Part shown: positions 7,204 to 29,049 of the stretch, piece after piece
Position numbering within the stretch: the stretch's first letter is position 1
Layout of the letters: each line of letters begins with the position of its first letter
NCBI RefSeq assembly: GCF_009937955.1
Contig: NZ_AP018439.1
Location: 6,076,001 to 6,140,000, forward strand
Direction: 5' to 3'
DNA: 64,000 nucleotides
Source: Undibacterium sp. KW1
GTDB taxonomy: Bacteria > Pseudomonadota > Gammaproteobacteria > Burkholderiales > Burkholderiaceae_D
Notes under the pieces: generated by a model
The model's input: the letters and a program-made list of their open reading frames with translations, nothing else
Databases searched by the model: none
Told to the model about the DNA's origin: nothing
Position numbers and translations under genes: made by a program

Positions 7204-7290
7204 CACTCACTTATCTCCTCATTTTTGGTTTCTAAGAACCTGTTCGAGATCTTATTGTAAACAAAAGGAATATTGCGTAAACTCGGTTAG

Positions 7291-11730: not shown

Positions 11731-11814
11731 AGGTTAAGAAATTTGAGTTAGATTAATCAGTAGCAATTACGGCAATAGTCGCACTGACGTTGCGGTTGTT
11801 ATTGAATTTGACGT

Positions 11815-12120: not shown

Positions 12121-12322
12121 TTAATACGGTAGCAATTTGTCGCCCTCAATTCATATAGCGCATCGCAAAAAACCAACCGCAACTAACACAAGCCCCCTCC
12201 CCCACTATCCCCCAAACCCATATCCAATATTACCCTCAACCCTCTGAAAAAATACAATCTTCCTCCAAGATAAAACCTCATGCTGACCCCGAAGCCAGCA
12301 GAAAAATACCTGGAGGACGACC
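12121..12322. other. Leader region of the BMP-type binding protein gene
   Basis: About 200 bp between the dispersed repeat and the next gene. It is C/A-rich on the plus strand, and no gene is seen. The only feature is a good ribosome binding site (GGAGG at 12312-12316) before the ATG at 12323. The promoter is presumably here but I cannot place it confidently. Confidence 0.4.
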
Positions 12323-13345
12323 ATGCAAACCCGCATCCGCAACACCACAATCATCAGGGCAGTGCTACTGATGATCACCTTCATGCTCAGCATGACAAAC
12401 AGCCCAGCCACTGCCGCAGAAGCACAAAAAATCTTCTACGTACGCCCAGCCCCCGACAACGATGACCCTTACCTGCAACAAGGCAGCGATGGCATCAAAC
12501 AGGCAGCGCAGATGTACCAGATGCAGGCAACTACCCTGGCCAGCCAGGCCGACCGTGCAGGCAGACAAAAGCAGCTGAAAAATGCCATCAGGCTGGGAGC
12601 GAATATCGTCGTCATGATAGGGTATGAATTCAGGGAATTGCTTGATACCGTGCCACACACTGCACCTAACGTTCGCTTCGTCATGCTGGAACAGTGCATT
12701 GCTAATCCACCACCGAATCTACTTTGCATCAGTTTTCGCGAAAGCGAAGCCAGCTATCTGGCGGGCATGGAGGCAGCGCTGGTATCAGCTAGCGGCAAGA
12801 TAGGTGTCATAGGTGCAGTGAAAACGCCATTGAAACAAAAGCCTGTTGATGCCTTCATCGCTGGTGCGAAGTCAATCAGGCCGGATGCTGACCTGAACCA
12901 TGTTGTCTGGATAGAAGGCAACCAGCCCTTCAATGACACAGGGCGTGCCGAAGTGTTGGCGAAGAGCATGCTGGCTGATGGTGTGGATATGATCTATGCC
13001 GCTGCTGGTAGCAGCAATAATGGGGTGTTCAAAGCACTTGCTGGCAACAGCAAGGCGCGGGCCATAGGCAATTATGTGAATCAATGCCCGAAGAATGCGG
13101 GCAAGGTTATCGACAATATGCAGGTACATGGTGATACGGCCATCAGCCTGGCAGTTGCGGCCATTTTGGGCGGATCAACAGCGACCAGAATTGAATATGG
13201 TTTGAAAGAAGGCGCAGTATCTTTGACCGGTATCAGCACCGATGCAGCATATTCCGATTGCGATATCCTGCGCCAGCGGCCTGTGCTGCAAAAACTGCGT
13301 GAAGCCAGTCAGGCGATTATCAAGGGCAAGTTGAAAGTGGAATAA
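12323..13345 (+). CDS. BMP-family substrate-binding protein (nucleoside/purine type)
   Basis: A 340-residue protein with a signal peptide (about 1-31) and a basic-membrane-protein (Bmp, PF02608) fold. Typical segments are the early GIKQAAQMY helix, GANIVVMIGYEFRELL, SYLAGMEAALVS and the AGSSNNGVFKA loop. Family members bind purine nucleosides or related bases for ABC import or sensing. It starts at an ATG after GGAGG. There is no ABC permease or ATPase beside it. It points toward the convergent purine degradation genes (guaD, xdhA-C), so a purine ligand is a reasonable guess. Confidence 0.82.
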   Translation: MQTRIRNTTIIRAVLLMITFMLSMTNSPATAAEAQKIFYVRPAPDNDDPYLQQGSDGIKQAAQMYQMQATTLASQADRAGRQKQLKNAIRLGANIVVMIGYEFRELLDTVPHTAPNVRFVMLEQCIANPPPNLLCISFRESEASYLAGMEAALVSASGKIGVIGAVKTPLKQKPVDAFIAGAKSIRPDADLNHVVWIEGNQPFNDTGRAEVLAKSMLADGVDMIYAAAGSSNNGVFKALAGNSKARAIGNYVNQCPKNAGKVIDNMQVHGDTAISLAVAAILGGSTATRIEYGLKEGAVSLTGISTDAAYSDCDILRQRPVLQKLREASQAIIKGKLKVE

Positions 13346-13380
13346 GAAGGTGTAGCGCAAAGTGCGTGTGCAAGAGGCGC

Positions 13381-13407
13381 GGTAGGGTGCGCATGGCGCA
13401 CCCTACC
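13381..13407. terminator. Perfect hairpin between convergent genes (REP-like, possible bidirectional terminator)
   Basis: A perfect 12-bp stem (GGTAGGGTGCGC at 13381-13392 and its complement at 13396-13407) with a 3-nt loop sits between the convergent BMP gene and tautomerase gene. No U-tract follows on either strand. Sequences of the GTAGGGTGCGC type are common dispersed palindromes in proteobacteria, so it may be a REP-like repeat used as a transcript end. Confidence 0.55.
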
Positions 13408-13437
13408 AAGACTTCTTGACTTGAATTTATTCAGATT

Positions 13438-13626
13438 CTATTTCTTGTCCGACCACAAAGTCCCGCCAGACGCCCAGTCTTCACGCTTGATTTCCTGAAT
13501 GATGATATCCACAGCGTCAAGAGAACAACCCAGAGTCTGGGCGCTGGCTTCGGTGACGGCTTTGACGAAAGCACGTTTTTGCTCGAGCGTGCGGCCCTCA
13601 AACATTTGCACATTGATGGTGGGCAT
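13438..13626 (-). CDS. 4-oxalocrotonate tautomerase family protein
   Basis: A 62-residue member of the tautomerase superfamily, which works as a small oligomer in the cytoplasm. The start at 13626 is chosen because it places the catalytic Pro directly after the initiator Met (MPTINVQMFEGRTLEQKRAF), as needed for the Pro-1 general base. An upstream in-frame ATG would hide it. The conserved Arg of this family may be seen in the GRTLEQ region. Family enzymes convert 2-hydroxymuconate-like enols. Its link with the purine genes upstream is only positional. Confidence 0.88.
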   Translation of the reverse strand: MPTINVQMFEGRTLEQKRAFVKAVTEASAQTLGCSLDAVDIIIQEIKREDWASGGTLWSDKK

Positions 13627-13686
13627 GGTTTTTCCTTGAAAGGTGTTGAACAATACCCACCATCATAAATCAGTCAGACAAGATTT

Positions 13687-15006
13687 TCACAACTGACGCT
13701 GATGGACCAGTTTGCCAGCTGCATATGTTGCAGCCACTGTCCTGTCATCCCCCAGCAAGGCCAGGGCAAACAGCAATTCATCCAGGCTCTCGGTGTGCCC
13801 GGTACGGCGTGCCAGCAAGGGCGTGGCTTGCGGGTCGAGCACAATGAAATCGGCTTCTGCCTCCTTGACGAAATTGCCTATCGTGCCTTCAAGCTGCATG
13901 CTGCGTGCACCACCCAGCGTCGCCAGGTAAAACATGCGCAATGCTGGCAGGTAAGTGCCACCTAGGCGTGCCATCTTGTAGGCTTCATTCATGGTGCGCA
14001 ACATCGAGAATGAAGTGCCGCCACCAACATCGGTAGCCAGTGACAGACTGACTTGCTGGGCGTCGGCACGTTCAAAATTGAACAGGCCACTGCCGAGGAA
14101 GAGATTGGAAGTCGGGCACATCGCCACTGCTGATTGCGTTTCTGCCATGCGCGTACGGTCGGCATCGTCAAGCCAGATGCAGTGGCCGTACATGGCACGC
14201 GGGCGCAGCATGCCGTACTGGTCATACACATCGAGATAGCTGCGTGCTTTTGGATACAGGGACTTGACCCAGGCCACTTCGTCGATATTTTCTGCGACGT
14301 GGGTCTGCAGGAAGGTATCGGGATAAGCCTGCGCCAGTTCGCCTGCCAGCTGCATTTGTGCGTCGCTGGAGGTAGGTGCAAAGCGTGGGGTGATTGCATA
14401 CAACTGGCGGCCACGTTTATGCCATTTCTTAATCAGGGTTTCGCTGTCGCGTATGCCACCTTCTGCGGTATCGCGCAAGAATTCAGGACAATTCCTGTCC
14501 ATCAAGACCTTGCCTGCCACCATACGCAGATTGCGTGCTTCACTCTCGGCGAAAAAGGCTTCGACGGATTCAGGATGGACGGTGCAATACACCATGGCTG
14601 TGGTCGTGCCTGAGCGCAGCAATTCATCAATGAAGAAATGCGCGACCTGGGCACTGTGGTTGATGTCAGCAAACTGGCGTTCAGTCGGGAAGGTATAAGT
14701 CTCCAGCCAGGGCAGCAAACCGGGCGCTGGCGAGGCGATCATGTCGGTCTGGGGGTAGTGGATGTGGGTGTCGATAAAACCCGGCACAATGAGTTTGCCG
14801 CGGTAATCGATGACTTCTGTCCCTTCGGGCAGGCCCGCGTGCAATTGTGCATACTCGCCGGCGGCGGCGATCTTGCCGTCTTCAACAATCAACAGGCCGT
14901 CTTCATGCCAGGCATAAGCCTGCGCATGAAAAGCAGGGTCTTGCTGGAAATGCAGCACACTGGCGCGGTAGGCTTGCAGCGTGTTTTTACTTGAAATATT
15001 GCTCAT
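13687..15006 (-). CDS. guaD: Guanine deaminase
   Basis: A 439-residue amidohydrolase that converts guanine to xanthine and ammonia. The metal motif PGFIDTHIHYPQ is at about residues 75-86, further metal or substrate residues lie around YGHCIWLDD, and the C-terminal Asp is in ATDVGGGTSFSMLRT, a typical guanine deaminase segment. The ATG at 15006 is preceded by a purine-rich AAAGA. The longer frame back to 15054 gives an unrelated peptide. It lies downstream of xdhA-xdhB-xdhC on the same strand, so its xanthine product would feed the dehydrogenase encoded there. Confidence 0.93.
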   Translation of the reverse strand: MSNISSKNTLQAYRASVLHFQQDPAFHAQAYAWHEDGLLIVEDGKIAAAGEYAQLHAGLPEGTEVIDYRGKLIVPGFIDTHIHYPQTDMIASPAPGLLPWLETYTFPTERQFADINHSAQVAHFFIDELLRSGTTTAMVYCTVHPESVEAFFAESEARNLRMVAGKVLMDRNCPEFLRDTAEGGIRDSETLIKKWHKRGRQLYAITPRFAPTSSDAQMQLAGELAQAYPDTFLQTHVAENIDEVAWVKSLYPKARSYLDVYDQYGMLRPRAMYGHCIWLDDADRTRMAETQSAVAMCPTSNLFLGSGLFNFERADAQQVSLSLATDVGGGTSFSMLRTMNEAYKMARLGGTYLPALRMFYLATLGGARSMQLEGTIGNFVKEAEADFIVLDPQATPLLARRTGHTESLDELLFALALLGDDRTVAATYAAGKLVHQRQL

Positions 15007-15131
15007 CGTGGTCTTTCTGAATTCTGTCTTGCAGGCGCAATCAAGCCAGACCACGACTTGTTCATCAAGTCTGCCGGTCTGGCATCACATTCGCATTGAT
15101 CTGGTGGGTGCTAAGCGCTAACAGCGAGAGT

Positions 15132-16262
15132 TTAACGCTTAGCCAGCGAGTGCCGTTTGTCTGGGGCCTGTTTTTCTGCATTTGAGCTAAAAACATGCTG
15201 ACCTGCCTCAGCACCAATACGAGCTAATACGCGGCTAAGTTCTTTTTGCTGATGGATTTCTTGCTCTTCCCAAACCTGCAAGAGCTGGGCTACGACAGAG
15301 GCGGCAATCACTGCCGGTTGCTTGCCGTGTATGCCGGGCAAACCTATGGGGCAGACCATGTCATTGAGACGGGTAGCCGGTATGCCACGTTCACGCAGGC
15401 GGCGTTCAAACTGCACGCGCTTGGTTTGCGAGCCTATGAGGCCAAACCAGCCCACATCCGGCAGGCGCAAGATATGTTCAGACAGTTTCTGGTCCAGTGC
15501 ATGACTATGCGTGAGCACCAGGAAGGATGTGCCTGGTGCTGCCTTGGCTATCAGAGCTTCCGGCGTATCAGTCGCTTCTACCGTGACATTCGCGGCCAGC
15601 CTGGTGGGGAACATATCTTCGCGTTCATCGACCCAGGTGATACGGCAAGGCAAGTCCGCCATGGCACGGACGATGGCAGCACCGACATGCCCAGCGCCAA
15701 ACAGCATCAGGTGGGCGCGGTAAGCGAGGCAGGAATCGAGCAGCCAGCGCTGGCCTGCTGCATCAGTCAGGACCTGGCAAGGATTACTGGTATCAATTTG
15801 CACTGGCAAACCCGCAGGCCAGGCCGGGCCTGTCAGGTGCGTGCCATTGGCATCGCACAGCGTTGGTGCCGCATTGCTATCGAGCGCCAGCAAACGCCAG
15901 CTATCTTGCCCCAGACGCCAGCGCTGGTTCAGGCAATTCAGATAAGCCAGGCTGTCAGCCTGCACACGTTCAAAGGCCAGGTGCACGACACCACCACAGC
16001 ATTGGCCCAGGCTGGGGCCTAGCGGGAAGCGTTCAAGGCGACGCTGGGCAGCAAGCTGGCTTTCTGGTATGGCCAGCATGCTGCGAGCGATTTCTGTCGC
16101 CTTCATTTCGAGATGGCCGCCACCTATCGTGTCGAATAATTCATCTGCCGTGACCAGCATCTTGGCACCCGGCTCACGCGGGCCGGAACCCAATACCGTG
16201 GCAACCGTCACCAGTATCTTGGGAACGGATTGTGTGGCAATTGCATTTAACCAAAGCTTCAT
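15132..16262 (-). CDS. xdhC: Xanthine dehydrogenase accessory protein XdhC
   Basis: A 376-residue XdhC/CoxI-type protein that binds the molybdenum cofactor and helps its sulfuration and insertion into XdhB. The N-terminal XdhC domain carries TVATVLGSGPREPGAKML and the GQCCGG motif. The Rossmann-like C-terminal domain contains LMLFGAGHVG and the LIGSQTKRVQFERRLRERG segment typical of the family. It follows xdhB after a 50-bp gap that contains a perfect tandem 12-bp repeat. The order xdhA-xdhB-xdhC is the usual one. The last ~45 residues are a charged tail not common to all homologues. Confidence 0.93.
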   Translation of the reverse strand: MKLWLNAIATQSVPKILVTVATVLGSGPREPGAKMLVTADELFDTIGGGHLEMKATEIARSMLAIPESQLAAQRRLERFPLGPSLGQCCGGVVHLAFERVQADSLAYLNCLNQRWRLGQDSWRLLALDSNAAPTLCDANGTHLTGPAWPAGLPVQIDTSNPCQVLTDAAGQRWLLDSCLAYRAHLMLFGAGHVGAAIVRAMADLPCRITWVDEREDMFPTRLAANVTVEATDTPEALIAKAAPGTSFLVLTHSHALDQKLSEHILRLPDVGWFGLIGSQTKRVQFERRLRERGIPATRLNDMVCPIGLPGIHGKQPAVIAASVVAQLLQVWEEQEIHQQKELSRVLARIGAEAGQHVFSSNAEKQAPDKRHSLAKR

Positions 16263-18693: not shown

Positions 18694-20175
18694 TCAAGCT
18701 GTGACGGTGACGGGGGCAAAGACATTGATGGCTTGCAGTTTGAGCGGAGCATCGGTGCGCGTCTCCAGCCAGAAACGGCGCAAAAGATTTTGTGCTGTCT
18801 GCATGCGGTAGGTATTGCTGGCACGCATATCGGTCAGTGGTGTGTAATCCTGTGCCAACAAGGCCATGGCATTTTTCACTGTCGCTTCATTCCATGGCTG
18901 GCCGTTCAAGGCTGCTTCTGCCAGAGGTGCGCGGCGTGAGGTAGCGGCCATACCACCGAAGGCGATATGCGCATCACGCACGATTCCTCCGTCTAGGCTG
19001 ATCGCAAAAGCAGCGCAGACGGCAGAAATGTCCTGGTCATAACGCTTGGCGAGTTTATAGGTGCGGAATTGCTGCCCGGCTTTGGGCAAGGGTATGCGCA
19101 CGGCAGCGACAAATTCACCGGGCTGCATATCCTTTTTCATATAGTCGAGGTAAAAACTCTCCAGCAACAACACGCGTTGGCCGCGCACGCTGTGCAAGAC
19201 GATCTCAGCACCCAAGGCAATCATCCACGGTGCTGAATCACCAATCGGCGAGCCATTGGCGACACTGCCACCGAGCGTGCCGGTATTGCGTATGGGTTGC
19301 GAAGCAAAGCGCTGCCACATCTCGGTCAGTTCATCCGGGTAATGCTTGCAGACTGCGCCGTAGGCATCATTCAGGGACACGGCAGCACCTATCTCCAGCA
19401 TGCCATCCACGGTCTTGATATGTTTTAACTCATCAACTTCACGCACATAAATGATATTGCCCAGGTCGCGCATTTGCTTGGTGACCCACAGGCCGACGTC
19501 GGTAGAACCTGCCAGTATGGTGGCCTTGGGGTTGGCTTCACGCACTTCAGCCAGTTGTTGCAAGGTGCGCGGTGCATAGAAAGTCTGGTTATATGCCGTA
19601 TAGCTGAACATCTCTCCACGCTGCAGGTCTTGCAAGCCGCTGATGACAGCCGCACGGTCAAACTCAGCCGCAGGCAATTCACCCATGCGCTTTGCGGCAT
19701 CGATGATGGGGCGGTAACCTGTACAACGGCAGAGGTTGCCGGACAGGGTTTCGTCTATTTCTTTGCGGCACGGAGGAACGGAATCCCCTTCTTTTTTCAG
19801 GTACAGGCTCCACAGGGACATGGCAAACCCCGGGGTGCAAAAGCCGCATTGCGAACCATGGCATTCCACCAGTGCCTGTTGCACAGGATGCAATTCACCA
19901 TTCTTTTGTTGCAAATCTTCTACCGTAAACACCGCCTTGCCATCGAGGGTGGGCAGGAACTGTATGCAGGAATTAACTGACTGCAATTCCAGCTGACCAT
20001 GTTTCATTTCACCAACGACGACCGTACATGCCCCGCAATCGCCCTCTGCACAACCCTCCTTGGTGCCGGTGCAATGCAGGTCTTCACGCAGATGCTGCAA
20101 CAGCGTGCGCGTAGGCGCAGCATTGCTGACTTGCTGGATTTGGCCTTGGTAATAGAAACGTATAGGGTCAGACAT
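18694..20175 (-). CDS. xdhA: Xanthine dehydrogenase, FeS/FAD subunit
   Basis: A 493-residue small subunit with two [2Fe-2S] clusters and an FAD domain. The N-terminal ferredoxin cluster is seen in CTGTKEGCAEGDCGAC and the second cluster in CGFCTPGF plus CRCTGYRP. The FAD-binding domain starts near residue 195 with ATILAGSTDVGLWVTKQMRD and includes TLGGSVANGSPIGD. It passes electrons from XdhB to NAD+. It is the first gene of the leftward operon, with GGAG 6 nt before the ATG. A 390-bp regulatory gap separates it from the divergent monooxygenase gene. Confidence 0.95.
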   Translation of the reverse strand: MSDPIRFYYQGQIQQVSNAAPTRTLLQHLREDLHCTGTKEGCAEGDCGACTVVVGEMKHGQLELQSVNSCIQFLPTLDGKAVFTVEDLQQKNGELHPVQQALVECHGSQCGFCTPGFAMSLWSLYLKKEGDSVPPCRKEIDETLSGNLCRCTGYRPIIDAAKRMGELPAAEFDRAAVISGLQDLQRGEMFSYTAYNQTFYAPRTLQQLAEVREANPKATILAGSTDVGLWVTKQMRDLGNIIYVREVDELKHIKTVDGMLEIGAAVSLNDAYGAVCKHYPDELTEMWQRFASQPIRNTGTLGGSVANGSPIGDSAPWMIALGAEIVLHSVRGQRVLLLESFYLDYMKKDMQPGEFVAAVRIPLPKAGQQFRTYKLAKRYDQDISAVCAAFAISLDGGIVRDAHIAFGGMAATSRRAPLAEAALNGQPWNEATVKNAMALLAQDYTPLTDMRASNTYRMQTAQNLLRRFWLETRTDAPLKLQAINVFAPVTVTA

Positions 20176-20567
20176 GAATGCTCCGGTATGAAATTCTTAT
20201 GGGGCGAGGTTAGCATCCACGGCGCTGACATCTATATGCATAAAATGATGTAGCTTATCTGCAGCTCAAAATATAAAACACCAGACAAACACCCTCGCAG
20301 GCTGCAAAGCCTTGTCAGTATTCAGTATAGACAGTACAGCGGAAAACGCAGGCCAGCGCTTGTATGGGGAATATCACGGTTTTTATATACCGGCTTGAGC
20401 AAACGATATGCTTTGCTCTGCGCTTAAGTCCCGACGTCTGGTATAGGCTCCAGCCTTGCCCGGAGCCAAGGTCAATATCCAGACCATGATCAACCATGAA
20501 TTAAAAGCTCAAAAAAGCTACAAATTTATGTATGATTTGCAACTCATTTAATCAGCCGGGCTTGCAC
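20176..20567. other. Divergent regulatory gap upstream of xdhA
   Basis: About 390 bp between xdhA (leftward) and the small monooxygenase gene (rightward). No gene or known riboswitch is recognised. A short hairpin (GGCTCC...GGAGCC at 20446-20467) is present. The gap should hold the promoters of both sides and possibly an operator for a purine-responsive regulator. Confidence 0.45.
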
Positions 20568-20897
20568 ATGTACACCTCTACGTTCACTTTCAAGAAAAAA
20601 CAGTACGACGATGTTTTTTATGCGCTGGATGAGCAAATTGCCTCTCTGGCGAAAGCCACGCCCGGTTATCTCGGTGAAGAGACCTGGGAAAATGCGGCTA
20701 CGGGCCAGATTTCCAATGTGTATTACTGGGACAGCCTGGAAGCCTTGCAGGCCCTGATTGCCAATCCCGTACACCAGCAGGCCAAGGCAGCCCAGGCCAA
20801 CTGGCTGGATGGTTACCAGGTCGTCGTGGCAGAAGTCTTGCGTACCTATGGTGATGGCAAGCTGGAACATCCCTGTGTTGAAATTCACAGGGCGTAA
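20568..20897 (+). CDS. Antibiotic biosynthesis monooxygenase (ABM) domain protein
   Basis: A 109-residue protein with a single ABM ferredoxin-like fold. Recognisable parts are the first strand and helix (YTSTFTFKKKQYDDVFYALDEQI), the PGYLGEETWEN segment and the VYYWDSLEALQALIANPVHQQAK helix pair. Family members include small cofactor-free monooxygenases and heme or stress-related enzymes. The start at 20568 is chosen because the fold begins directly after it. It is divergent from xdhA. The substrate is unknown. Confidence 0.82.
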   Translation: MYTSTFTFKKKQYDDVFYALDEQIASLAKATPGYLGEETWENAATGQISNVYYWDSLEALQALIANPVHQQAKAAQANWLDGYQVVVAEVLRTYGDGKLEHPCVEIHRA

Positions 20898-20947
20898 ATT
20901 GACTAAGCATCCGAGTAAACTCTGATCATTTCTGAAAGCATAAGCAT

Positions 20948-21523
20948 ATGAAAACCGGTCTCAGCATAGTTCTGGTTGTCGCGTTATTGAGCAATGCACC
21001 AATGGGCAAGGCAAGCAGCCAGGATGAACAGGCATTGATGGCTGGCGTGCAGGGTTTTTATGGCTGGGTGCTGAAGAAAGGCAAACAGGTCTCGGCCTTG
21101 CAGCCGCAAATCAAGGATATTGCTGGCAGCAAGAAATTTCAGCTTGATACCAAAAACCTCAAGGCTTTCAGTGGCAAGTTCATGGCTTCCGGCTATTTTG
21201 CACCAGACTTTCCGGCAGTGCTGGAGCGTTACTATGGCAAGTACCAGCAGCAATTCAAGGCTTATACCGATGCCGAGTTTGCCCAGATGGCCAAGGATGG
21301 CCGTGGGCCGCTGATGGAAACAGAAGATATGGATATTTTCTTTTGCGCCCAGGAATATGAGTACAAGACGTCTTTCATCAAGAAAATCAAGGCCAAGACG
21401 ATCAAGCTGGGTGGTGACAAAGCCAGCGTCACCGTAGTCTCGCCTTATCAGTGGGAAGCTGAATTCAAGTTCGTCAAAGTCGATCAGCGCTGGCTGATTG
21501 CTGGTTACTGTGTGTTCCAATAA
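20948..21523 (+). CDS. Exported DUF3828-like protein
   Basis: A 191-residue protein with a signal peptide (about 1-22, MKTGLSIVLVVALLSNAPMG). The pattern of an early VQGFYGWVLKK segment, a middle acidic MDIFFCAQEYE strand and a C-terminal VTVVSPYQWEAEFKFVKVDQRWLI strand pair resembles the NTF2-like DUF3828 family. Function is unknown. It lies just upstream of the four-gene kinase/ATPase cassette, with a 73-bp gap, and is probably a separate unit. Confidence 0.65.
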   Translation: MKTGLSIVLVVALLSNAPMGKASSQDEQALMAGVQGFYGWVLKKGKQVSALQPQIKDIAGSKKFQLDTKNLKAFSGKFMASGYFAPDFPAVLERYYGKYQQQFKAYTDAEFAQMAKDGRGPLMETEDMDIFFCAQEYEYKTSFIKKIKAKTIKLGGDKASVTVVSPYQWEAEFKFVKVDQRWLIAGYCVFQ

Positions 21524-21596
21524 GCCTGCGGCCCATGGCTAGGGTCTTCTTGTGCATGCTATATTATGTTTTCTTGCAACTTCCTGAACAGGGCTT

Positions 21597-22667
21597 ATGA
21601 GCGGTCCTACCACCGTTTTAACCAGAGCCGATGCGATGCGGGTTTTGCTGTCAGCAGCAGGCATACGTGCTGCCATGGCTGTCAAGCAGGCGCATCAGGA
21701 TGCCGGCCTATTGCGCACGCAACAGAATGAGCAGCAAGCCATTCTGCAAGAACGCCTGCGTGCTGCAACTGGCTTGAGTCAACAGGCTTTGCAGCAGCAA
21801 TTGCAAACGACAGAGCAAGACTATGCCGATTTATTGCTATTGGCTGAAAAAATAGGCTACAGTGATCAGGTACAGGCAATTCGTCCGCCGTCTCCACAAG
21901 GAGCGGATGAGCAGGAAATCATTACTTACCTGCGTAACTTGCATGCACTGGTGTATGAGCTCAGACCTGTGCTTTTGCAAGAGTCTGCCAGACGGGCCGA
22001 TTCCCTCTTTGATCAGACAGATTTTGATGTGGCAACGGCCAGCAGTGCAACTCTGCCGCAAGACCGGCTGGCGCGCCTGCTGAAACGCGTCGCCCACCTG
22101 CCACAATTACCAGAAGATATCGCAGGGCTGGCAAGAGAGCTGGAAATATCCCTGCCCGGCGAGCGGGCTGATCTGCTTGCCAGCGATTTGCGCCTGCACA
22201 TCCAGAACCTGCTGGAAGCCGAGAAAAAACGCCAGGTAGGTGAAGCCCAGGCCCTGATACTAGAGCAGACTTTGAAAGACCTTGGCTACCAGGTCGAAGA
22301 GATATCCCACACCCTGTTTGTAGAAGGTGGCACCGTTCATTTTCGCCGCAACAGCTGGGACAAGTACATGGTGCGCATGCGCATGGATGCCAAGACCGGG
22401 CAAGCCAATTTCAATGTCATCCGTGCCGTCAAACAGGGTGAAAATGAACGCAGCGTACTTGACCATCTGGCAGAAGACCGCTGGTGCAGTGAATTCCCGA
22501 CTCTGATGGCAGCACTGGAAGCGCGTGGCATACACATGCAGGTGACACGGCTATTGCAGGCAGGTGAACTGCCAGTGCAACTGGTCGTGGAAGACAAACT
22601 GCCGCGATTTGCAGAAGAAGAGCAAATCGAAAGCCGCAAACAACAACGTAGCAATAAATTGCCATGA
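21597..22667 (+). CDS. Coiled-coil protein, first gene of the AAA+/radical-SAM/kinase cassette
   Basis: A 356-residue cytoplasmic protein with no family that I can name. Residues about 30-105 and 195-220 are Gln/Glu/Leu-rich and predicted coiled coil. The C-terminal part (about 215-330) looks like a compact alpha/beta domain with LEQTLKDLGYQVEEIS, VHFRRNSWDKYMVRMRMD and a VLDHLAEDRWCSEFPTL helix. Its stop overlaps the start of the AAA+ gene (ATGA at 22664), so the two proteins are translationally coupled and likely act together, perhaps as adaptor and ATPase. It could be a substrate or scaffold of the kinase. Confidence 0.75.
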   Translation: MSGPTTVLTRADAMRVLLSAAGIRAAMAVKQAHQDAGLLRTQQNEQQAILQERLRAATGLSQQALQQQLQTTEQDYADLLLLAEKIGYSDQVQAIRPPSPQGADEQEIITYLRNLHALVYELRPVLLQESARRADSLFDQTDFDVATASSATLPQDRLARLLKRVAHLPQLPEDIAGLARELEISLPGERADLLASDLRLHIQNLLEAEKKRQVGEAQALILEQTLKDLGYQVEEISHTLFVEGGTVHFRRNSWDKYMVRMRMDAKTGQANFNVIRAVKQGENERSVLDHLAEDRWCSEFPTLMAALEARGIHMQVTRLLQAGELPVQLVVEDKLPRFAEEEQIESRKQQRSNKLP

Positions 22668-24511
22668 ATGTACCTGACATACGCTGGCTGCAAGACTTGC
22701 AGCGCCTGCTGCCCATACGATCCCAGTATGTGGTTTCTGGCAGCATACGCGACAGTTTTCTGTTGCCACTTGACGCTGCTTCTGGCAGTGCCACCCTGGT
22801 GCCTTTCAACCGTGCCTTGTGGGAGTTTTTAAAAAGCCAGGACTACAGTCTTTTACTTGCGTTTGACCCTGTCGATGGCTTGCGCGTCTATCCTGACGAA
22901 GCAGCGCAGCGTGATCTGGCCGCCCGCCTGTTCGATGTGAAGCTGGCAGATGGTTGTCAGCAAATGAGCCTGGAAAGCCTGAGCAAGCTGATGAAAAAAA
23001 TCAGTGCTGAACGCGAAGTACGTTGCGCTCTGGTGCTGGATTTTGCCTCACGCATCAGCCGCAAGCCTGAGCAGTTGAGTGAGGCTGAACACCGCTTCTT
23101 TGTCGCCGCAGAAAAAATCTCGCTGAATGCCTCTGCCATAGTCCCGCGTCAGAAAGGTGGACCACCGCTATACAATCCCATACTGTGGCTGGTGAACCGG
23201 GCGCAGGATTTGCCATCCTGGTTCACGCTCGATAGCGAGCGGATTGCGACCCTGCATATCGGCAAACCCGACTTTGAAATGCGCCAGGCTGCGGCACAAC
23301 AACTGGCACCCTTGTTTGCCGGGTTTGCTGATGCGCAAGCGGATGTCCGCACCCAATTCGTCAAAGCTTTTACTGAAGGAACGGATGGCATGTCCCTGTC
23401 TGCCCTGGCAGATATCACTGAGCTGGCGGACCGGCAAAAACTCGCTATCAGTGATATAGATGATGCAGTACGCTGCTATAAAGTTGGGGTGCTGGATAAT
23501 CCCTGGCGCAAGGAATACCTGCGCGACAAGATACGCGATGCTGAAAATTTTATCGAAGACCGTGTCAAGGGCCAACGCCCTGCGGTCATCAAGACCCTCG
23601 ATATTCTGAAGCGCTCGGTTATGAGCCTGACAGGGGCGCAAACTCGCTCGGTCGGCAGCAGGCCACGCGGCGTCTTGTTTTTTGCCGGTCCAACCGGTGT
23701 GGGTAAGACCGAACTGGCCAAGACCCTGACAAAACTGGTGTTTGGTGATGAAGCGGCTTATTCACGTTTTGACATGAGTGAATTTGCAGAAGAGCATACC
23801 AGCGCCAGGTTGCTCGGTGCCCAACTGGGTTTCGTCGATTCTGAAGCTGGTGGCGAACTCACCAACGCCGTCAGGCAAAAACCTTTTTCTGTCGTGCTGT
23901 TTGATGAAATCGAAAAAGCCCATCCGCGCATACTCGATAAATTCTTGCAGATACTGGAAGATGGCCGCCTGACCGATGGCCGTGGCGACACCGCGTATTT
24001 TTCTGAAACCATTTTGATCTTCACTTCCAACCTGGGTATCTATGTAGAAGACAATCACGGGCAACGCCACGAAAATGTCAAACCAGGTGACAGCTATGAA
24101 ACCGTGGAATTCAAGGTGCGTGCAGCCATAGGTAATTATTTCAAATTCAATTTGTCACGACCAGAATTATTGAACCGCATCGGTGACAATATCGTGGTCT
24201 TTGATTTTATTTCTGCTGAAGTCGCCGCCAAGATTTTTGATGGCATGCTGCGCAATGTCGCGCGTCGTTTGCAGGAAGAACTCAAGCTGCAACTGGCCAT
24301 GCCAGCGGCAGTGCGCGATGACTTGCTGGCACGTTGCATACGTGACCTCAGCAACGGTGGCCGTGGCATAGGCAACCAGCTGGAATCAAATTTCATCAAC
24401 CCCTTGTCGCGCGCCTTGTTTGAACAGGAACTGACAGGCAAGCAGCGCCTCACTGTAACGGCGATTACCGAAGCCGATAAAGTCATCAGCCTGAGCCTGC
24501 AATTAGCATGA
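22664..24511 (+). CDS. ClpB-like AAA+ ATPase with degenerate N-terminal ATPase half
   Basis: A 615-residue AAA+ protein. The C-terminal half (about 320-612) matches the second ATPase domain of ClpA/ClpB/HslU-type unfoldases. It has Walker A GPTGVGKT at 342-349, Walker B VVLFDEIEKAH with Asp414/Glu415, sensor-1 TSN after ETILIF, and an arginine finger Arg505 in PELLNRIGD. The N-terminal half (about 1-300) has the length and helical pattern of an AAA+ module but no Walker A, so it is likely inactive. No ClpP-binding IGF/IGL loop is seen. It overlaps both neighbouring genes by 4 bp. Its role is probably ATP-driven remodelling of a partner protein. Confidence 0.85.
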   Translation: MNVPDIRWLQDLQRLLPIRSQYVVSGSIRDSFLLPLDAASGSATLVPFNRALWEFLKSQDYSLLLAFDPVDGLRVYPDEAAQRDLAARLFDVKLADGCQQMSLESLSKLMKKISAEREVRCALVLDFASRISRKPEQLSEAEHRFFVAAEKISLNASAIVPRQKGGPPLYNPILWLVNRAQDLPSWFTLDSERIATLHIGKPDFEMRQAAAQQLAPLFAGFADAQADVRTQFVKAFTEGTDGMSLSALADITELADRQKLAISDIDDAVRCYKVGVLDNPWRKEYLRDKIRDAENFIEDRVKGQRPAVIKTLDILKRSVMSLTGAQTRSVGSRPRGVLFFAGPTGVGKTELAKTLTKLVFGDEAAYSRFDMSEFAEEHTSARLLGAQLGFVDSEAGGELTNAVRQKPFSVVLFDEIEKAHPRILDKFLQILEDGRLTDGRGDTAYFSETILIFTSNLGIYVEDNHGQRHENVKPGDSYETVEFKVRAAIGNYFKFNLSRPELLNRIGDNIVVFDFISAEVAAKIFDGMLRNVARRLQEELKLQLAMPAAVRDDLLARCIRDLSNGGRGIGNQLESNFINPLSRALFEQELTGKQRLTVTAITEADKVISLSLQLA

Positions 24512-25164
24512 AGATAGCGATCAATAAAGCGCATTTCCCGGTCACTGTACTCGGGCCGGGGAGGCGCATCGGCATCTGGGTACAGGGTTGCAGCATAGGC
24601 TGCAAGGGCTGTGTTTCGCAAGATACCTGGGCCAGGGATAGCAGCAAGGAAATGACAGTGGCGGGTTTAGTGAGCTGGTGCCGCGAAGTCAGCGCCGGGC
24701 AATTTGATGGCATTACCATTTCAGGTGGTGAACCATTCGAGCAACCCAAGGCCCTGCATGCCTTGCTTGATGGTTTGCATTACTGGCGCAATAGTGCAGG
24801 GATGGATTTCGACATCCTTTGCTATAGCGGTTATCCACTCGCAACTCTGCAAAAAAGGCATGCAGACTTGCTGCAGAAACTTGATGCCCTGATCCCTGAG
24901 CCTTTTATCGTCAATAAGCCGCTGACCCAGGCCTGGCGTGGCTCAGCCAATCAACCGCTGGTACTCTTGTCAGACCGTGCAAGGGCGCGCATGCAGACTT
25001 ATGTGGATGCCCCCATCGATGAACAGGACAAACGCATACAAACCATGATAGACGGCCAGCATGTCTGGTATGTAGGCATACCGGCGCGTGGTGACATGCA
25101 GGCACTCGAGCAATTATGTGCCAGTCGTGGTCTGAGCTTTGATAGCGTCAGCTGGAGGCCCTGA
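24508..25164 (+). CDS. Radical SAM protein, NrdG/PflA activase-like
   Basis: A 218-residue protein with the radical-SAM cluster motif C-x3-C-x2-C at Cys28, Cys32 and Cys35 (CSIGCKGC) and the SAM-binding GGE motif in ITISGGEPFEQP. The short length and the GIWVQGC entry place it with 4Fe-4S single-cluster activases such as NrdG and pyruvate-formate-lyase activase. No glycyl-radical enzyme is encoded in the window, so its target is probably another protein or small molecule. It is locked between the AAA+ gene (4-bp overlap) and the kinase gene (TGAGTG junction), which implies joint expression. Confidence 0.85.
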   Translation: MKIAINKAHFPVTVLGPGRRIGIWVQGCSIGCKGCVSQDTWARDSSKEMTVAGLVSWCREVSAGQFDGITISGGEPFEQPKALHALLDGLHYWRNSAGMDFDILCYSGYPLATLQKRHADLLQKLDALIPEPFIVNKPLTQAWRGSANQPLVLLSDRARARMQTYVDAPIDEQDKRIQTMIDGQHVWYVGIPARGDMQALEQLCASRGLSFDSVSWRP

Positions 25165-27531
25165 GTGAGTCAGATTTACATACGCCGCTGCCCCGCCTGT
25201 GAAACCGACAACGCGCCTGAAGTCATGCGCTGTGTTTGCGGCACTTTGCTGTCTGGTGTGGACTTGATGGAAAAACGCGAGCAAACAGAACCATCCATTG
25301 AGATAACGCAGCCAGCAACCACAGTCACAGCAACAGAATTATTTTGCAGTTATGAGGATTGCGAACAAAGCAATCCGCCAAATAGTGATCTTTGCCTGTA
25401 TTGCAATCGCCCACTGAGCAAGGAACCAACAACTCAAGATAGCAGCCAAATTCATAGCCTGTTATCGTTGCCGCAAGCCCTGCGCGATCGCTACAAAATA
25501 CTACATCACCTGCCAACCCTGGGAGCAGAGGCCGAACTGCTAGTGGTAGCAGAAAATACCTCTGCTATACAACGTGTCGCCAAGATTTATCGACATGGCA
25601 TACATGGCAAATCTGAAGTCAGTGAAAGGCTGCAAGCGGTACCAGCCGAGCACCGCGTCGTCGTGCTGGAAGCTGGCGTATCTGACGGCCATGCCTATGA
25701 GCTCATGGAATACTGTGAGCTTGGCTCATTAAAAAAATTCGTACAAGACAGTCGGCCAGATCCTGCCATGCTGGAAAGCATAGTGCGTGAACTGGCAACA
25801 GCCATCGCCAGTGTGCATAAAGCCGGACTTATCCACCGCGACCTGAAGCCCGAGAATATTCTGGTGCGCACGCTGCAACCGCTGGATTTAATACTCACTG
25901 ACTTTGGCATTTCATCTGTGCTGGATGCCACACAAAGGCTGACTGGCACAGCGCGCACCTTGCCGTATGCCTCACCAGAAAGCCTGTCTGGCGTCATCGA
26001 TGCCAAGGCAGATTACTGGGCGCTGGGCATGATCATGCTGGAACTGGCTATGGGCCAGCATCCATTTGCCGGTTTGTCAGAAGCTGTGATCCTGCACCAC
26101 CTGACTACGCGCGAGCTGGAACTCAATGCCGTGCCGGATGCCTATCTGCGCAAGCTGCTGCGTGGCCTGCTGTTGCGTGACCCTAAAAAACGCTGGGGTA
26201 AGGATCAGATCATGCGCTGGCTGGCGCGTGACACCAGCCTGCCAGAGGCCGTGGAAACCATGGCCATGGGCGGTTTTCGTGAGCCCTATCATATAGGTCA
26301 ATATCTCTGCCACACCCGCGAACAACTGGCAGTGGCACTGGCCCGTAACTGGGATGATGGCGTCAGGGATATCTCGAATGCGCAATTGCTGGCCTGGTTC
26401 CGCGATGTACAAAAAGACCAGAATGCGGTGCGGGTCTTGCTCGATATGCGCCAGGATAAAAAGCTCTCGGTCGATGTACAGCTATTGCGACTGATATTGC
26501 ATCTGGCACCCGGCATACCACCGGTATGGCGCGGTGAAACCATAGAACTGCCAGCGATACTCGGCTATGCCAATAGCTCATTGAAAGGTGATGAAACCGC
26601 CAGCAACTGGCTGAAACAGCTGTACAACTACGGCGTGCTGGAAGCCTATGCCGATGCGGGCAACAAAGAAGTCGCCAGCATAGTGCAAAAATGGCAGGCT
26701 TGCTGCAAACAAATCGAGCAGGCCTGGCAAGAAGCTTTTGGTCTCGTGAAAAACTATGCCAGCAAGCAATTGCCGGGAGAACATAGCAATATCGACAAAC
26801 TCATGTACGGCCTTGAGACAGATGACAGCGCACCGCTGCATAGATTGCATGCACGGGTGCTGGCGCTGGTCTATGATGAACGCTGGCCTGAGCGCCTGCG
26901 CAAGCGCCTGCAGGTCGCCTATGCCGGCCTGCAAGCTTATTGCCCCTGGTTATCTGCATTGGGTGAGATAGAAAAAATGCCGGTCGCCTCGCTGCTGGTG
27001 CTTGAAGCCCTGTTGCCGGAGGCGCAAAAAGCAGTTGAACGCCAGCAAAAAGCCGATGCCTGGCTGCGCAGCACAGAGCAGGATGCCGCCGCCGCAATAA
27101 AGCAGGAAGTCTTGCAAAGTATCAGAAGCTTGCGCACGGCTGCCACTGACAGTCTCTTGCCTGACAGCGCCGTAGAAGACTTGCAAAAGGCGCTGGAAGA
27201 GTATTATGTGTTGCTGGAAAAACTGCGCGCCTCAGCCAGCACCGAAGCAGCATGGCAGGAAGCAAAGAAGAGCGCATCGCGGGTAGAACATATTGCCGCA
27301 GGAATATCCCGCGAGCTCAATCAACTGCTGGCAAGACGCACAGAAAACCAGGGCTGGGCGGGGCAGGAAATGCAGGTTTTTCTGGCCATTGCCATCATCG
27401 TCATACTTATCTTTTTCAGAAAGAGTAATTTTTACTGGATATTGCTGCTGGTCTCAGGCCTTGCCGCCTGGCGCTTCTTGCCTAATTTTTTGAGCATGCG
27501 CAAAATCCGCGAGTTGGGTGAGCAACTATAA
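25165..27531 (+). CDS. Zinc-ribbon Ser/Thr protein kinase, membrane-anchored
   Basis: A 788-residue Hanks-type kinase. The N-terminus has two zinc-ribbon-like Cys clusters (CPAC...CVC at about 9-28 and CSYEDC...CLYC at about 56-77). The kinase domain spans about 105-355 with VAIK-type Lys140, catalytic HRD at 224-226 (HRDLKPEN) and DFG at Asp246. The Gly-rich loop is weak. A long helical region (about 360-725) follows, then two closely spaced membrane segments at about 737-751 and 757-773. It uses GTG start 25165 directly after the TGA of the radical-SAM gene, with GGAGG at 25154-25158. It is likely the regulator or sensor of the cassette. No PASTA or FHA domain is seen. Confidence 0.88.
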   Translation: MSQIYIRRCPACETDNAPEVMRCVCGTLLSGVDLMEKREQTEPSIEITQPATTVTATELFCSYEDCEQSNPPNSDLCLYCNRPLSKEPTTQDSSQIHSLLSLPQALRDRYKILHHLPTLGAEAELLVVAENTSAIQRVAKIYRHGIHGKSEVSERLQAVPAEHRVVVLEAGVSDGHAYELMEYCELGSLKKFVQDSRPDPAMLESIVRELATAIASVHKAGLIHRDLKPENILVRTLQPLDLILTDFGISSVLDATQRLTGTARTLPYASPESLSGVIDAKADYWALGMIMLELAMGQHPFAGLSEAVILHHLTTRELELNAVPDAYLRKLLRGLLLRDPKKRWGKDQIMRWLARDTSLPEAVETMAMGGFREPYHIGQYLCHTREQLAVALARNWDDGVRDISNAQLLAWFRDVQKDQNAVRVLLDMRQDKKLSVDVQLLRLILHLAPGIPPVWRGETIELPAILGYANSSLKGDETASNWLKQLYNYGVLEAYADAGNKEVASIVQKWQACCKQIEQAWQEAFGLVKNYASKQLPGEHSNIDKLMYGLETDDSAPLHRLHARVLALVYDERWPERLRKRLQVAYAGLQAYCPWLSALGEIEKMPVASLLVLEALLPEAQKAVERQQKADAWLRSTEQDAAAAIKQEVLQSIRSLRTAATDSLLPDSAVEDLQKALEEYYVLLEKLRASASTEAAWQEAKKSASRVEHIAAGISRELNQLLARRTENQGWAGQEMQVFLAIAIIVILIFFRKSNFYWILLLVSGLAAWRFLPNFLSMRKIRELGEQL

Positions 27532-27545
27532 ATTCTGGAGTATCC

Positions 27546-27965
27546 ATGTCTGCCATTTTTAACAAATTGAATTTGAAAGATCAGAGTGAAATACTGGTCT
27601 TGCATGCACCCGCATCATTTGAGCCTGAAATCGCGGCCTTGACCAAGGTCAAGGTACACAAGAAATTGTCTGGCATCAAAAAACTGAATTTTGCTTTGGT
27701 ATTCGTCAGCAAGCAGCAAGAGCTTGATGAAATCTCACTGGCCCTGAGCAAGCTGGTAGAGGGAGATGCCCTACTGTGGTTTGCTTATCCCAAGGGAAGC
27801 TCGAAAAAATATCAATGTGAATTCAACCGTGATACTGGCTGGGATGTGATCAAAGCGGCTGGGTTTGATACGGTGAGGATGGTGGCGATTGATGAAGACT
27901 GGTCAGCATTACGGTTCAGGCATGGCGACTTTATCAAAAATTCTAGCAGGAAGGCTGCTGGCTGA
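27546..27965 (+). CDS. DUF3052-like small protein
   Basis: A 139-residue cytoplasmic protein. The pattern ALLWFAYPKGSSKKY, NRDTGWDVIKAAGFDTVRMVAIDEDWSALRFRH is typical of the DUF3052-like family, whose function is unknown. It starts 14 bp after the kinase gene with GGAG before the ATG. It may belong to the same transcript, but such proteins are also found alone, so its membership in the cassette is uncertain. A stem-loop at 28005-28037 follows. Confidence 0.75.
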   Translation: MSAIFNKLNLKDQSEILVLHAPASFEPEIAALTKVKVHKKLSGIKKLNFALVFVSKQQELDEISLALSKLVEGDALLWFAYPKGSSKKYQCEFNRDTGWDVIKAAGFDTVRMVAIDEDWSALRFRHGDFIKNSSRKAAG

Positions 27966-28004
27966 AGGCCTGATTATTTTACAGATAAATAGAACTCAAT
28001 TCGG

Positions 28005-28037
28005 GCTCAATCCAGTTAGCCCTTAGCTGGATTGAGC
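28005..28037. terminator. Stem-loop between convergent genes
   Basis: A perfect 11-bp stem (GCTCAATCCAG at 28005-28015 and its complement at 28027-28037) with an 11-nt loop lies between the convergent DUF3052-like and YkvA genes. U-tracts are weak on both strands, so it may end transcripts with Rho or just stabilise 3' ends. Confidence 0.55.
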
Positions 28038-28064
28038 TTCATAGTAGCCTGGCAAGGCAAGACC

Positions 28065-28406
28065 TCAAACTTGTCCACTGCCGAACCAGCCCGTCATCTT
28101 ATCCCTGGCACTCTGCTTCACATCGTCAGTAATATAAAAACTGACGGTCACCAGAGCGCCCGCAATGACACCGAGATCATCACTGTAACCGACCACTGGC
28201 AACATATCCGGCACTGCATCCAGCGGGAAAATGAAGTAACCCAATGTACCAAAGATGACAGTCTTGGCCCAGGCTGGTGTCTCCGGCCTCTGAGCCGCAT
28301 AGTACAGGCACAGCACTTTTTCTATGACTTCACTGCCTGCCGCTTGTGCATATTTCTTGAGCTTGTCCCAAAAACCTTTTTCACTATACGCTTTGCCATG
28401 TGACAT
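28065..28406 (-). CDS. YkvA-like DUF1232 membrane protein
   Basis: A 113-residue protein of the DUF1232 (YkvA) family. The core segment TVIFGTLGYFIFPLDAVPDMLPVVGYSDDLGVIAGALV is the family hallmark and spans about 50-87. A GAGGAG ribosome binding site precedes the ATG. The gene starts 11 bp after the end of the LysE-type gene on the same strand, so they likely form an operon. Function unknown. Confidence 0.88.
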   Translation of the reverse strand: MSHGKAYSEKGFWDKLKKYAQAAGSEVIEKVLCLYYAAQRPETPAWAKTVIFGTLGYFIFPLDAVPDMLPVVGYSDDLGVIAGALVTVSFYITDDVKQSARDKMTGWFGSGQV

Positions 28407-28417
28407 GACACTGCTCC

Positions 28418-29049
28418 TCAGTCATTCGCTTTTTTCACGGTGGCCAGCAAACCCGCCGCTGCCACGAATACGCCGCCAGAAAACTGGTTGAACATTTTTG
28501 CCTTGCCTTTGGACCGCAGCCAGGGTCCCATGCGTTCGGCAAATACCGCATACAGCATCAGCACACTGAATTCAAAAAATACAAAGGTGCTGCACAGGAC
28601 TAAAAATTGCGGCAGCTTGGCGGCAGCCGGATTGATGAATTGCGGGAAGAAGGCGGTAAAGAACAGCAAGGCCTTGGGATTGCTGGCGCCGACCAGCATG
28701 CCTTTGACATACAGGCGCAGGCGGGTGCCGCGCAACTCGGTTTCTGTCGGCAAGATAAAATCACTGCTCTTGGCACGCAAGCTGCTGATGCCGAGATACA
28801 AGAGATAAGCCACACCGAGGTATTTGATGATGGTAAATACCAGCGCCGAGGTCGCCAGAATCGCACCTATGCCTATTGCCGAACAAGTCATGATGGCAAT
28901 CAGGGAAGTAATATTCCCCAGCGCCGGAAACAGGGTCATGCGCGCACCGAAATTGATGCTGTTGGTGATGCACATCAAAACGGCGGGACCGGGGTGATGG
29001 TCAGTACCAATACGGCGATAACATACAGCAACCAGGTTTCTATAGACAT
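28418..29049 (-). pseudogene. LysE/RhtB-family exporter with a one-base frameshift
   Basis: LysE-type amino-acid exporters have about 205-210 residues. Most of the frame (about residues 22-210) is intact, with FTIIKYLGVAYLLYLGISSLRAKSS, MLVGASNPKALLFFTAFFPQF and the other membrane helices. The true N-terminus, MSIETWLLYVIAVLVLTITP, is read from the ATG at 29049 in another frame. The two join at the expected TPGPAVLM motif only if one base is added near 28988-28994, where a C/G run occurs. So the gene carries a single-base deletion, or there is a sequencing error. The ORF from 29062 as it stands gives a wrong N-terminus. Confidence 0.85.

Follow-up and report, generated by a model that had tools for sequence, protein, structure and literature searches.

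A four-gene operon of Undibacterium sp. KW1 with a coiled-coil, Hsp100-like and radical-SAM trio that recurs in distant bacteria

Four consecutive genes of Undibacterium sp. KW1, encoding a coiled-coil protein (CC), a Clp/Hsp100-like AAA+ protein (AAA), a radical-SAM protein (rSAM) and a Ser/Thr kinase (STK), form a real unit, in which CC, AAA and rSAM are the core trio and the fourth partner varies. Further copies of the trio, many of them on plasmids, occur in Alpha- and Gammaproteobacteria, Bacillota and Cyanobacteriota. The reading we favour, at a probability of roughly 0.45, is that of a self-contained protein-modification switch resting on the three-protein core, in which CC would serve as the adaptor and the kinase as the gate or output.

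The operon and its surroundings

The operon is chromosomal, and the positions of its genes and motifs in the window (that is, the whole stretch of 64,000 nucleotides that was analysed) are given in Table 1.

Table 1. Genes, domains and motifs of the operon, with positions in the window
Feature	Position	Strand	Remarks
CC, coiled-coil protein, 356 aa	21597..22667	+	MSGP conserved at the N-terminus; long helices; alpha+beta domain at the C-terminus
MSGP N-terminal motif of CC	21597..21608	+	118/120 homologues among the matches listed
C-terminal domain of CC, residues about 200-331	22194..22589	+	Leave-one-class-out profile search; structure comparison
Cys297 of CC, WC.EF motif	22485..22487	+	Alignments
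AAA, Clp/Hsp100-like, 615 aa	22664..24511	+	D1-D2, without N-domain or middle domain
Degenerate first ring D1 of AAA, residues about 3-285	22670..23518	+	No Walker A
Active-type second ring D2 of AAA, residues about 286-600	23519..24463	+	Walker A and B present; sensors and Arg finger placed by invariant columns
rSAM, minimal NrdG-like radical SAM protein (Fer4_12), 218 aa	24508..25164	+	
CX3CX2C iron-sulphur motif of rSAM, Cys28, Cys32, Cys35	24589..24612	+	18/18 window-type
STK, Ser/Thr kinase, 788 aa, GTG start	25165..27531	+	Kinase domain preceded by two zinc ribbons; long region behind it, with membrane segment(s) at the C-terminus
Two zinc-ribbon Cys clusters of STK, residues 9-25 and 61-80	25189..25404	+	Both in 16/16
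Kinase domain of STK, residues about 99-350	25459..26214	+	Lys140, HRDLKPEN from 224, DFG from 246
Hydrophobic C-terminal stretch of STK, residues 730-763	27352..27453	+	Hydropathy
Fifth ORF, 139 aa	27546..27965	+	

The ORFs of CC and AAA, and those of AAA and rSAM, overlap by 4 bases each, and the gap between rSAM and STK is 0 bases. In Pfam, the window proteins match AAA_2 (E 7.5e-45) together with ClpB D2-small, Fer4_12 (3.3e-27) and Pkinase (1.4e-31). One genome scan for close relatives of rSAM returned 17 loci of the window class (class A); in all 17, AAA lies upstream and a kinase downstream of rSAM, with order and strand kept. The CC gene is visible in 16 of them, and in the other (L016) the contig stops just upstream of AAA. 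The earlier note had taken the four genes for a unit that fits no nameable system, and both points hold: the genes are intact and tightly overlapped or abutting, their order is kept among genera while the flanking genes differ, and the four-gene set fits no known system among those tested. No RNA element of Rfam was matched at window positions 20000-29000, the promoter and terminator scans gave counts no different from shuffle level, and neither the ORF list nor Pfam revealed a protease gene among the operon ORFs.

Inspected by eye in lists of ORFs, the flanks of 10 of the 17 loci read as mostly housekeeping genes, and the G+C content of the operon matches its surroundings (0.535, against 0.519 for the window). 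The mobile or defence island in which the earlier note sought support was not seen in these flanks of the window version, and the housekeeping-like flanks weaken a defence role of the window class. For distant relatives of the trio such settings were found, with plasmid copies beside helicase and nuclease genes and, in one genome, a copy beside other conflict genes. Within the genus the operon is patchy (10 of 36 genomes, some of them incomplete). The flank of one locus (L007) includes one toxin-antitoxin-like pair.

Several neighbours were rejected as parts of the system. The fifth ORF, which had been read as DUF3052-like and as a possible member, has no Pfam match at E<=0.1 and adjoins the operon in only five of the 17 loci, those of the five closest relatives, of which four are named Undibacterium and the fifth is a Burkholderiales MAG. 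An upstream DUF3828-like gene is near the operon in only four of these five, and a downstream DUF1232 gene in only the five. A prophage or phage origin was rejected as well: pattern scans of viral contigs confirmed 0 CC relatives of the window class, 0 of Bacillota type and one of class C, and in the phage collection 0 of 149 AAA-matching records reach 80% coverage of AAA.

Features of CC, AAA and the kinase

MSGP occurs within the first 120 residues of 118 of 120 CC homologues among the matches listed (at residue 1 in 114), a count that is not independent, since the motif was present in the query alignment. Among 119 further Bacillota-type homologues, 101 start with MSGPK, and some distant relatives carry MSGPK, MSGxPK or MSGEK instead; CC proteins of class C are without MSGP, so the motif is not strictly tied to the rSAM enzyme. 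What the different architectures have in common is the C-terminal domain of CC: in the leave-one-class-out profile test, 19 of 23 held-out proteins outrank the best of 2541 decoys, and the other 4 failed. The last conserved helix is opened by a Cys in 22 of 23 CC proteins; it is missing in the CC of Calothrix and sits one alignment column off in class C. By profile comparison, no significant match was obtained between class C CC and class A or B, nor between Aristaeella CC and class A, and the links of both groups to the family rest on alignment, leave-one-class-out profiles and gene neighbourhood. Foldseek against PDB folds gave no significant match for CC; by structure comparison, the C-terminal domain may have a KA1-like fold, which is a weak lead.

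The predicted model of AAA aligns over Clp D1 and D2 with its residues 3-615, that is to say, as two tandem AAA+ rings, part of D2 being of low model confidence. The large rmsd over both rings relative to Hsp100 is perhaps due to the way the rings are placed when a single chain is modelled. The N-terminal ATPase half had been described earlier as inactive, and this was supported, with GK[ST] in 0 of 18 N-halves and a model that aligns to Clp; the D2 motifs, including Walker A, are intact in 23 of 23 proteins. ClpB, ClpC and ClpA share the two-ring architecture. Unlike them, however, AAA lacks the N-domain, the middle domain and Walker A of D1, and it is tied to a radical-SAM gene. Of the two ATP sites that mark ClpB and ClpC, one per ring, only that of D2 is present, and the curated ClpB cut-off is missed (231.9 against 1232.1 bits).

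In the kinase, the two Cys clusters and the C-terminal membrane segments foreseen in the earlier note were recovered, the former in 16 of 16 kinases and the latter, by hydropathy, as one or two hydrophobic segments in 7 of 8. The catalytic motifs (the last one as DF[GS]) are intact in 16/16 window-class kinases, and in the helicase-fusion pseudokinases the catalytic Lys is lost and DFG is changed to GFG (3 of 3 aligned). STK misses the curated cut-offs of the BREX/MADS kinases (MAD6, 76.4 against 460 bits; PglW, 44.7 against 990 bits). Gating of the system by phosphorylation, which had also been proposed, is a hypothesis that gains strength from the intact motifs of STK and from the surroundings of the trio in a Bacillota relative, where an FHA protein, a PP2C-like phosphatase and two kinases are encoded.

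The trio in distant bacteria and its likeness to known systems

In the window version the fourth partner is a kinase whose catalytic motifs are intact and which carries zinc ribbons and a membrane segment; elsewhere the trio is accompanied by a pseudokinase-helicase-nuclease fusion, by a Mokosh-like helicase and a PIN protein, or by kinases with FHA and phosphatase. All 9 plasmid regions that were retrieved through AAA matches, a subset of the matches listed, encode AAA, rSAM and CC together. The phylum sample of 8 genomes gave 4 with all three, 1 with AAA and rSAM, and 2 short contigs with AAA and CC and no rSAM, one fragment being left out. In the genome G258, where AAA and rSAM are present, three profiles detected no CC within 19 kb, and in Geminocystis the rSAM gene is about 9 kb away from AAA. 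For AAA D1, AAA D2, rSAM and CC, pairwise distances across 19 systems show correlations of 0.94-0.98, or of 0.54-0.88 when between-class pairs alone are taken. Within class A, the distance correlation also tracks host relatedness. No E. coli genomes with DNA close to the Moellerella copy were found.

Among known systems, Mokosh (MkoA/MkoC) resembles the class C relatives, whose helicases match MkoA in 6 of 6 scanned (best E 8e-93 to 7e-102), whereas the window system has neither a helicase nor a nuclease domain. To our knowledge, Mokosh includes no radical-SAM enzyme and no Hsp100. With the PDC-S37 and Hhe helicases of PADLOC the likeness lies in the class B fusion, which matches PDC-S37 (4e-149). 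Kaur et al. 2020 (PMC7159879) present the vWA-MoxR FtsH ternary conflict systems as predicted, with AAA+ proteins joined to a radical-SAM domain whose presumed role is the modification of a peptide effector. The pairing of AAA+ with radical SAM is common to both; however, those systems are built on vWA and MoxR, and the window proteins have no vWA match and reach only 12.6 bits for bpMoxR against a cut-off of 27. The AAA-DUF1257-DUF2997-Fer4_12 cassettes, carried by Paenibacillus and (without the DUF1257 label) by Paenarthrobacter plasmids, also combine an AAA+ protein, a Fer4_12 radical-SAM protein and small proteins, and their DUF2997 has a G..C helix start resembling that of class C CC. This homology is a weak one, with a pairwise E of 0.0077 at 5% probability, and does not rise above decoys, on which ground DUF2997/DUF1257 was rejected as the source of the CC C-terminal domain, and no DUF2997 was found in the 21 genomes searched. 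In the accessible text of the literature searched, including PMC7159879, PMC10853773, PMC12458937, PMC12839542 and PMC4158269, with subscription journals outside the coverage, the trio is undescribed.

Possible mechanism, alternatives and meaning

The analysis establishes the order of the genes, their domains, which motifs are intact or lost, and the recurrence; we infer that the products of the operon act in one complex. CC would be the adaptor, its N-terminal strand and C-terminal domain probably forming one head and the coiled coil an arm, and it would also be the likeliest substrate of rSAM. AAA, with its dead first ring and live-type second ring, might spend ATP on pulling or remodelling either CC or a protein that CC brings to it. 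This would expose a site for rSAM, for which the almost invariant Cys of CC or the Ser-Gly-Pro at its N-terminus are candidates. The membrane-anchored zinc-ribbon kinase may either gate the rSAM reaction or carry its output, and the biological role may be one in immunity. In the relatives, the same core could be joined to other outputs, namely those of the fusion, of the helicase with PIN, and of the kinases with FHA and phosphatase.

The chemistry of rSAM bears on two alternatives. The protein shares the Fer4_12 family with the NrdG/PFL activating enzymes, and in NCBIfam it comes closest to NrdG-type models and PFLA, which would suit an ordinary activase that sits by chance in a kinase operon, the four genes not acting together. 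However, it stays below the family cut-offs (NrdG, 83 against 126.1 bits; PFLA, 53.2 against 231.75 bits), and the AAA-rSAM gene pair recurs across phyla. The host genome (G000) matches neither PF01228 nor PF13597, nor do 12 of the 18 class-A genomes, several of which are MAGs (6 have at least one match); in the control genomes, matches were obtained in 3 and 6 of 14. Such a chance placement is very improbable; and because no glycyl-radical enzyme is detectable in the host, rSAM is probably not a glycyl-radical activase, so the activase without a partner enzyme suggested by the earlier note is an unlikely description. An rSAM that no longer catalyses and instead serves an AAA/kinase complex as an iron-sulphur sensor of oxygen or redox state would agree with the small size of the protein, its lack of extra Pfam domains and an operon without a known substrate. 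This is nevertheless distinctly unlikely, since CX3CX2C (in all 18 window-type proteins and in 15 of 15 taken from across the classes) and GG[ED]P (15 of 15 diverse proteins) point to retained SAM binding and catalysis.

As for the role of the whole system, anti-phage or anti-plasmid defence is quite possible, if short of an even chance: the core would sense infection, and the kinase version would abort growth or block invaders, as the helicase and nuclease cousins presumably do. Related trios stand beside MkoA-like helicases in every class C case scanned, beside PIN proteins and MTES_1575 nuclease domains and, in one genome, beside GAP1/DO-GTPase conflict genes; plasmid copies adjoin integrases or ArdA; the STK kinase domain resembles the mad6 and PD-T4-6 defence profiles, though these are seemingly generic kinase matches; and the distribution in the genus is patchy. 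On the other hand, the flanks of the 10 loci read as mostly housekeeping genes, there is no G+C anomaly, the context is alike among the five closest relatives, and the viral contigs and phage records yielded neither a confirmed window-class copy nor a nearly complete AAA. The same flanks, the chromosomal position, the conserved order, the clear ClpB/ClpC-type motor and the hydrophobic C-terminus of the kinase would also be in keeping with stress quality control, in which the motor remodels damaged membrane or cytosolic proteins picked by CC, the kinase reports the envelope state and rSAM repairs or marks oxidised side chains. We consider this unlikely, as the operon is patchy in the genus and has no protease gene, and the nuclease and helicase domains of the relatives would be superfluous for such a role.

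To return to the modification switch, the presence of the same core beside differing possible outputs in the relatives hints at a "sense and fire" module of general use when cells face conflict or stress. A bolder and rather doubtful extension is a new class of ATP-driven radical protein-modification machine, in which a half-dead Hsp100 would unfold or position the MSGP adaptor, rSAM would install a modification or a protein radical, and the adaptor would then fire interchangeable outputs (the membrane kinase here, helicases and nucleases elsewhere) in immunity or stress across phyla. If the trio is one machine, it would couple the unfolding of proteins to radical chemistry on them, and we know of no characterised system that pairs the two. 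If true, it would also give several plasmid-borne, defence-like operons, uncharacterised and seemingly unrelated until now, a core in common, and the window version, compact with four genes and no nuclease, would be a convenient form in which to probe the function of that core.

Gene order and distribution of the four-gene unit

The unit encodes, in order, a coiled-coil protein (CC, 356 aa), a Clp/Hsp100-like protein of two rings, D1 and D2 (AAA, 615 aa), a minimal radical-SAM protein (rSAM, Fer4_12, 218 aa) and a zinc-ribbon Ser/Thr kinase (STK, 788 aa). All four ORFs, coordinates and overlaps of the earlier note were borne out by ORF calls and a junction check. When genomes were scanned with the window rSAM protein, 53 stretches were matched, 17 of them encoding relatives. 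In 17/17 of these loci AAA lies directly upstream of rSAM and a kinase downstream; CC lies upstream of AAA in 16, and in the remaining one (L016) the contig stops there. By title, the hosts are Undibacterium, Rhodoferax, other Burkholderiales, Azonexus, Accumulibacter, an uncultured beta proteobacterium and one "uncultured proteobacterium". A protein search added 478 CC homologues, of which 120 were listed; Sideroxydans, Rhodocyclaceae and Methylococcaceae are among the sources named.

Across the 17 loci, the neighbours of the unit vary beyond the five closest relatives. The flanks of 10 loci hold mostly genes that we take to be housekeeping-like, by names assigned from sequence, and one presumed toxin-antitoxin-like pair, named in the same way, flanks L007. 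Within the genus, a full-length and closely related AAA gene is present in 10/36 genomes, not all of them complete; the host genome itself is 6.69 Mb in two contigs. By gene order in the 17 loci, the changing, mostly housekeeping-like flanks and the 10/36 count, the unit is real, patchy in distribution and, in the loci examined, outside mobile or defence islands; such an island placement, which the earlier note would have counted as support, was seen in none of the 10 flanks.

Properties of the component proteins

Pfam matches to AAA_2 and ClpB D2-small are confined to the C-terminal half of AAA. In the predicted model (mean pLDDT 80.3; residues ~320–520 weaker, 44–80 per block), residues 3–615 align with the whole D1–D2 span of Clp proteins. 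The inactive N-terminal ATPase half proposed in the earlier note is supported: GK[ST] is missing from D1 in 18/18 AAA proteins, and D2 keeps Walker A and B in 23/23. The D2 pore-loop region is altered in the window protein, which reads GFVDSEAGG; at this place the other 17 alignment rows show PPGY[VI]G, with AGG again after it, and the closest relative of the window protein (genome G027, L019) reads GFIDSEAGG.

The rSAM motif CX3CX2C is present in 18/18 proteins of the window class and 15/15 across classes. Since its scores fall under the glycyl-radical activase family cut-offs and the host genome has no match to the glycyl-radical families PF01228 or PF13597, rSAM is probably not a glycyl-radical activase. 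Among the 18 genomes with the window-type system (class A), 12 match neither family and 6 match at least one; the control for these searches gave 3 and 6 matches among 14 control genomes.

The catalytic Lys, HRDLKPEN and DF[GS] are found in 16/16 STK proteins, as are both zinc-ribbon clusters, in agreement with the two Cys clusters first read from the sequence; a hydrophobic C-terminal segment is found in 7 of 8 checked. The kinase-like domain of class B belongs to the same zinc-ribbon kinase subfamily (profile E 1e-54 to 7e-57), but in 3/3 aligned it no longer has its catalytic Lys or the Asp of DFG. That is to say, the subfamily has two forms, an intact-motif membrane kinase and a degenerate module fused to helicase and nuclease.

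MSGP stands in the first 120 residues of 118 of the 120 CC homologues listed (of 478), a count that is not independent, the motif being present in the query alignment. Of the two exceptions, one is apparently a late start call and the other has MSAP.

The trio as the core of several systems

CC, AAA and rSAM form the core of systems of further architectures, which were reached by profiles and tblastn.

Coordinates and gene content of the window-type unit, the other classes and adjoining features
Feature	Source	Coordinates	Content
Four-gene unit (class A)	window	21597–27531 (+)	CC, AAA, rSAM, STK
AAA D2 pore-loop region	window	23819–23854	AAA residues 386–397
Class B			AAA, rSAM, ~2100-residue fusion (zinc ribbon, kinase-like domain, DUF4011/AAA_11/AAA_12 helicase, MTES_1575 nuclease; Pfam, one fusion), CC starting MSGPK
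Class C	one Undibacterium genome; plasmids of Photobacterium, Acinetobacter, Moellerella, Polaromonas, Leisingera		MkoA-like helicase, PIN protein (Pfam in Undibacterium, annotation on plasmids), CC, AAA, rSAM
Class D	Aristaeella lactis (Bacillota)		DUF4011-helicase-MTES_1575 protein, kinase, CC (MSGPK), FHA with zinc ribbons, rSAM, AAA, phosphatase, second kinase
Class E	Geminocystis; two Pseudomonadota genomes		CC start MSGxPKY or MSATPKY (one at internal Met)
Class F	G069		kinase, rSAM, AAA, CC
Class G	Calothrix		more remote
GAP1-N1/DO-GTPase2/GASH conflict locus	L042 (G378)	1986–8324	adjoins class B trio
Class B kinase-helicase gene	L069 (G258)	11800–15965	seemingly interrupted; profile matches in two different open frames
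Second AAA/radical-SAM pair	L051 (Acinetobacter plasmid pNDM1_010055)	11709–13213	beside class C trio

The class D phosphatase is annotated as Ser/Thr phosphatase (PP2C_2, E 2e-4, slightly under the Pfam cut-off). In class E, rSAM lies ~9 kb off in Geminocystis and was not seen on the two short Pseudomonadota contigs. G258 has AAA and rSAM, with no CC detectable by profile within 19 kb. In 398 genomes sampled evenly across the phylum, the AAA N-terminal profile matched 8 and the CC profile 3; among the 8, the complete trio is present in four, one is G258, two are short contigs with AAA and CC only, and one, a fragment, is outside the tally.

Pairwise distances of AAA D1, AAA D2, rSAM and CC correlate at 0.94–0.98 over 19 systems, the class A portion being partly due to host relatedness, and for each pair 0/2000 permutations were as high. 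Between-class pairs alone give 0.54–0.88, with CC weakest.

Several loci were observed besides. One genome of the window's genus (G001; L025, L043) has both a window-type and a class C system. The name pNDM1_010055 hints at carbapenem resistance, and a viral-collection contig of IMG/VR (L073) encodes a relative of the class C coiled-coil protein (31% identity). Calothrix plasmid pCAL6303.02 (L056) carries in one run Hsp70-family, TPR, radical-SAM, MSG-start coiled-coil and AAA genes and a zinc-ribbon-like coiled-coil protein, the last, like the GTPase-like genes nearby, being read by eye.

Relation to known systems and proposed role

The nearest published likeness to the trio, in the literature searched, is the FtsH ternary conflict system, whose radical-SAM domain likely modifies a peptide effector (PMC7159879). 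The trio misses a defining feature of every known system tested, and no description of it was found in the non-subscription literature searched. Plasmids of Paenibacillus and Paenarthrobacter (L057, L058) carry cassettes in which AAA and Fer4_12 radical-SAM genes accompany DUF2997 and a small protein that is DUF1257 in Paenibacillus; DUF2997 has a G..C helix start, as in class C CC. Radical-SAM and AAA genes also occur within a contractile-injection-like cluster on Treponema succinifaciens plasmid pTRESU01 (L059).

An immune theme is supported by the helicase, PIN and MTES_1575 partners, by plasmid location and, in one genome, by adjacent GAP1/DO-GTPase genes, but the genes around the window version lend it no support, and an immune role of the window version is put forward tentatively. 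The intact STK motifs, together with the FHA protein, phosphatase and two kinases of the Bacillota system, support a phosphorylation theme. CC is the only component other than an enzyme that accompanies AAA and rSAM at almost every locus examined; its terminal elements are conserved, one Cys in it is almost invariant, and the neighbouring output gene is the variable part. On these grounds a mechanism is proposed, at a probability of roughly 0.45, in which CC would be both adaptor and substrate, the half-dead Hsp100 would act as the motor presenting it, rSAM would make the chemical change, and STK may serve as gate or output.
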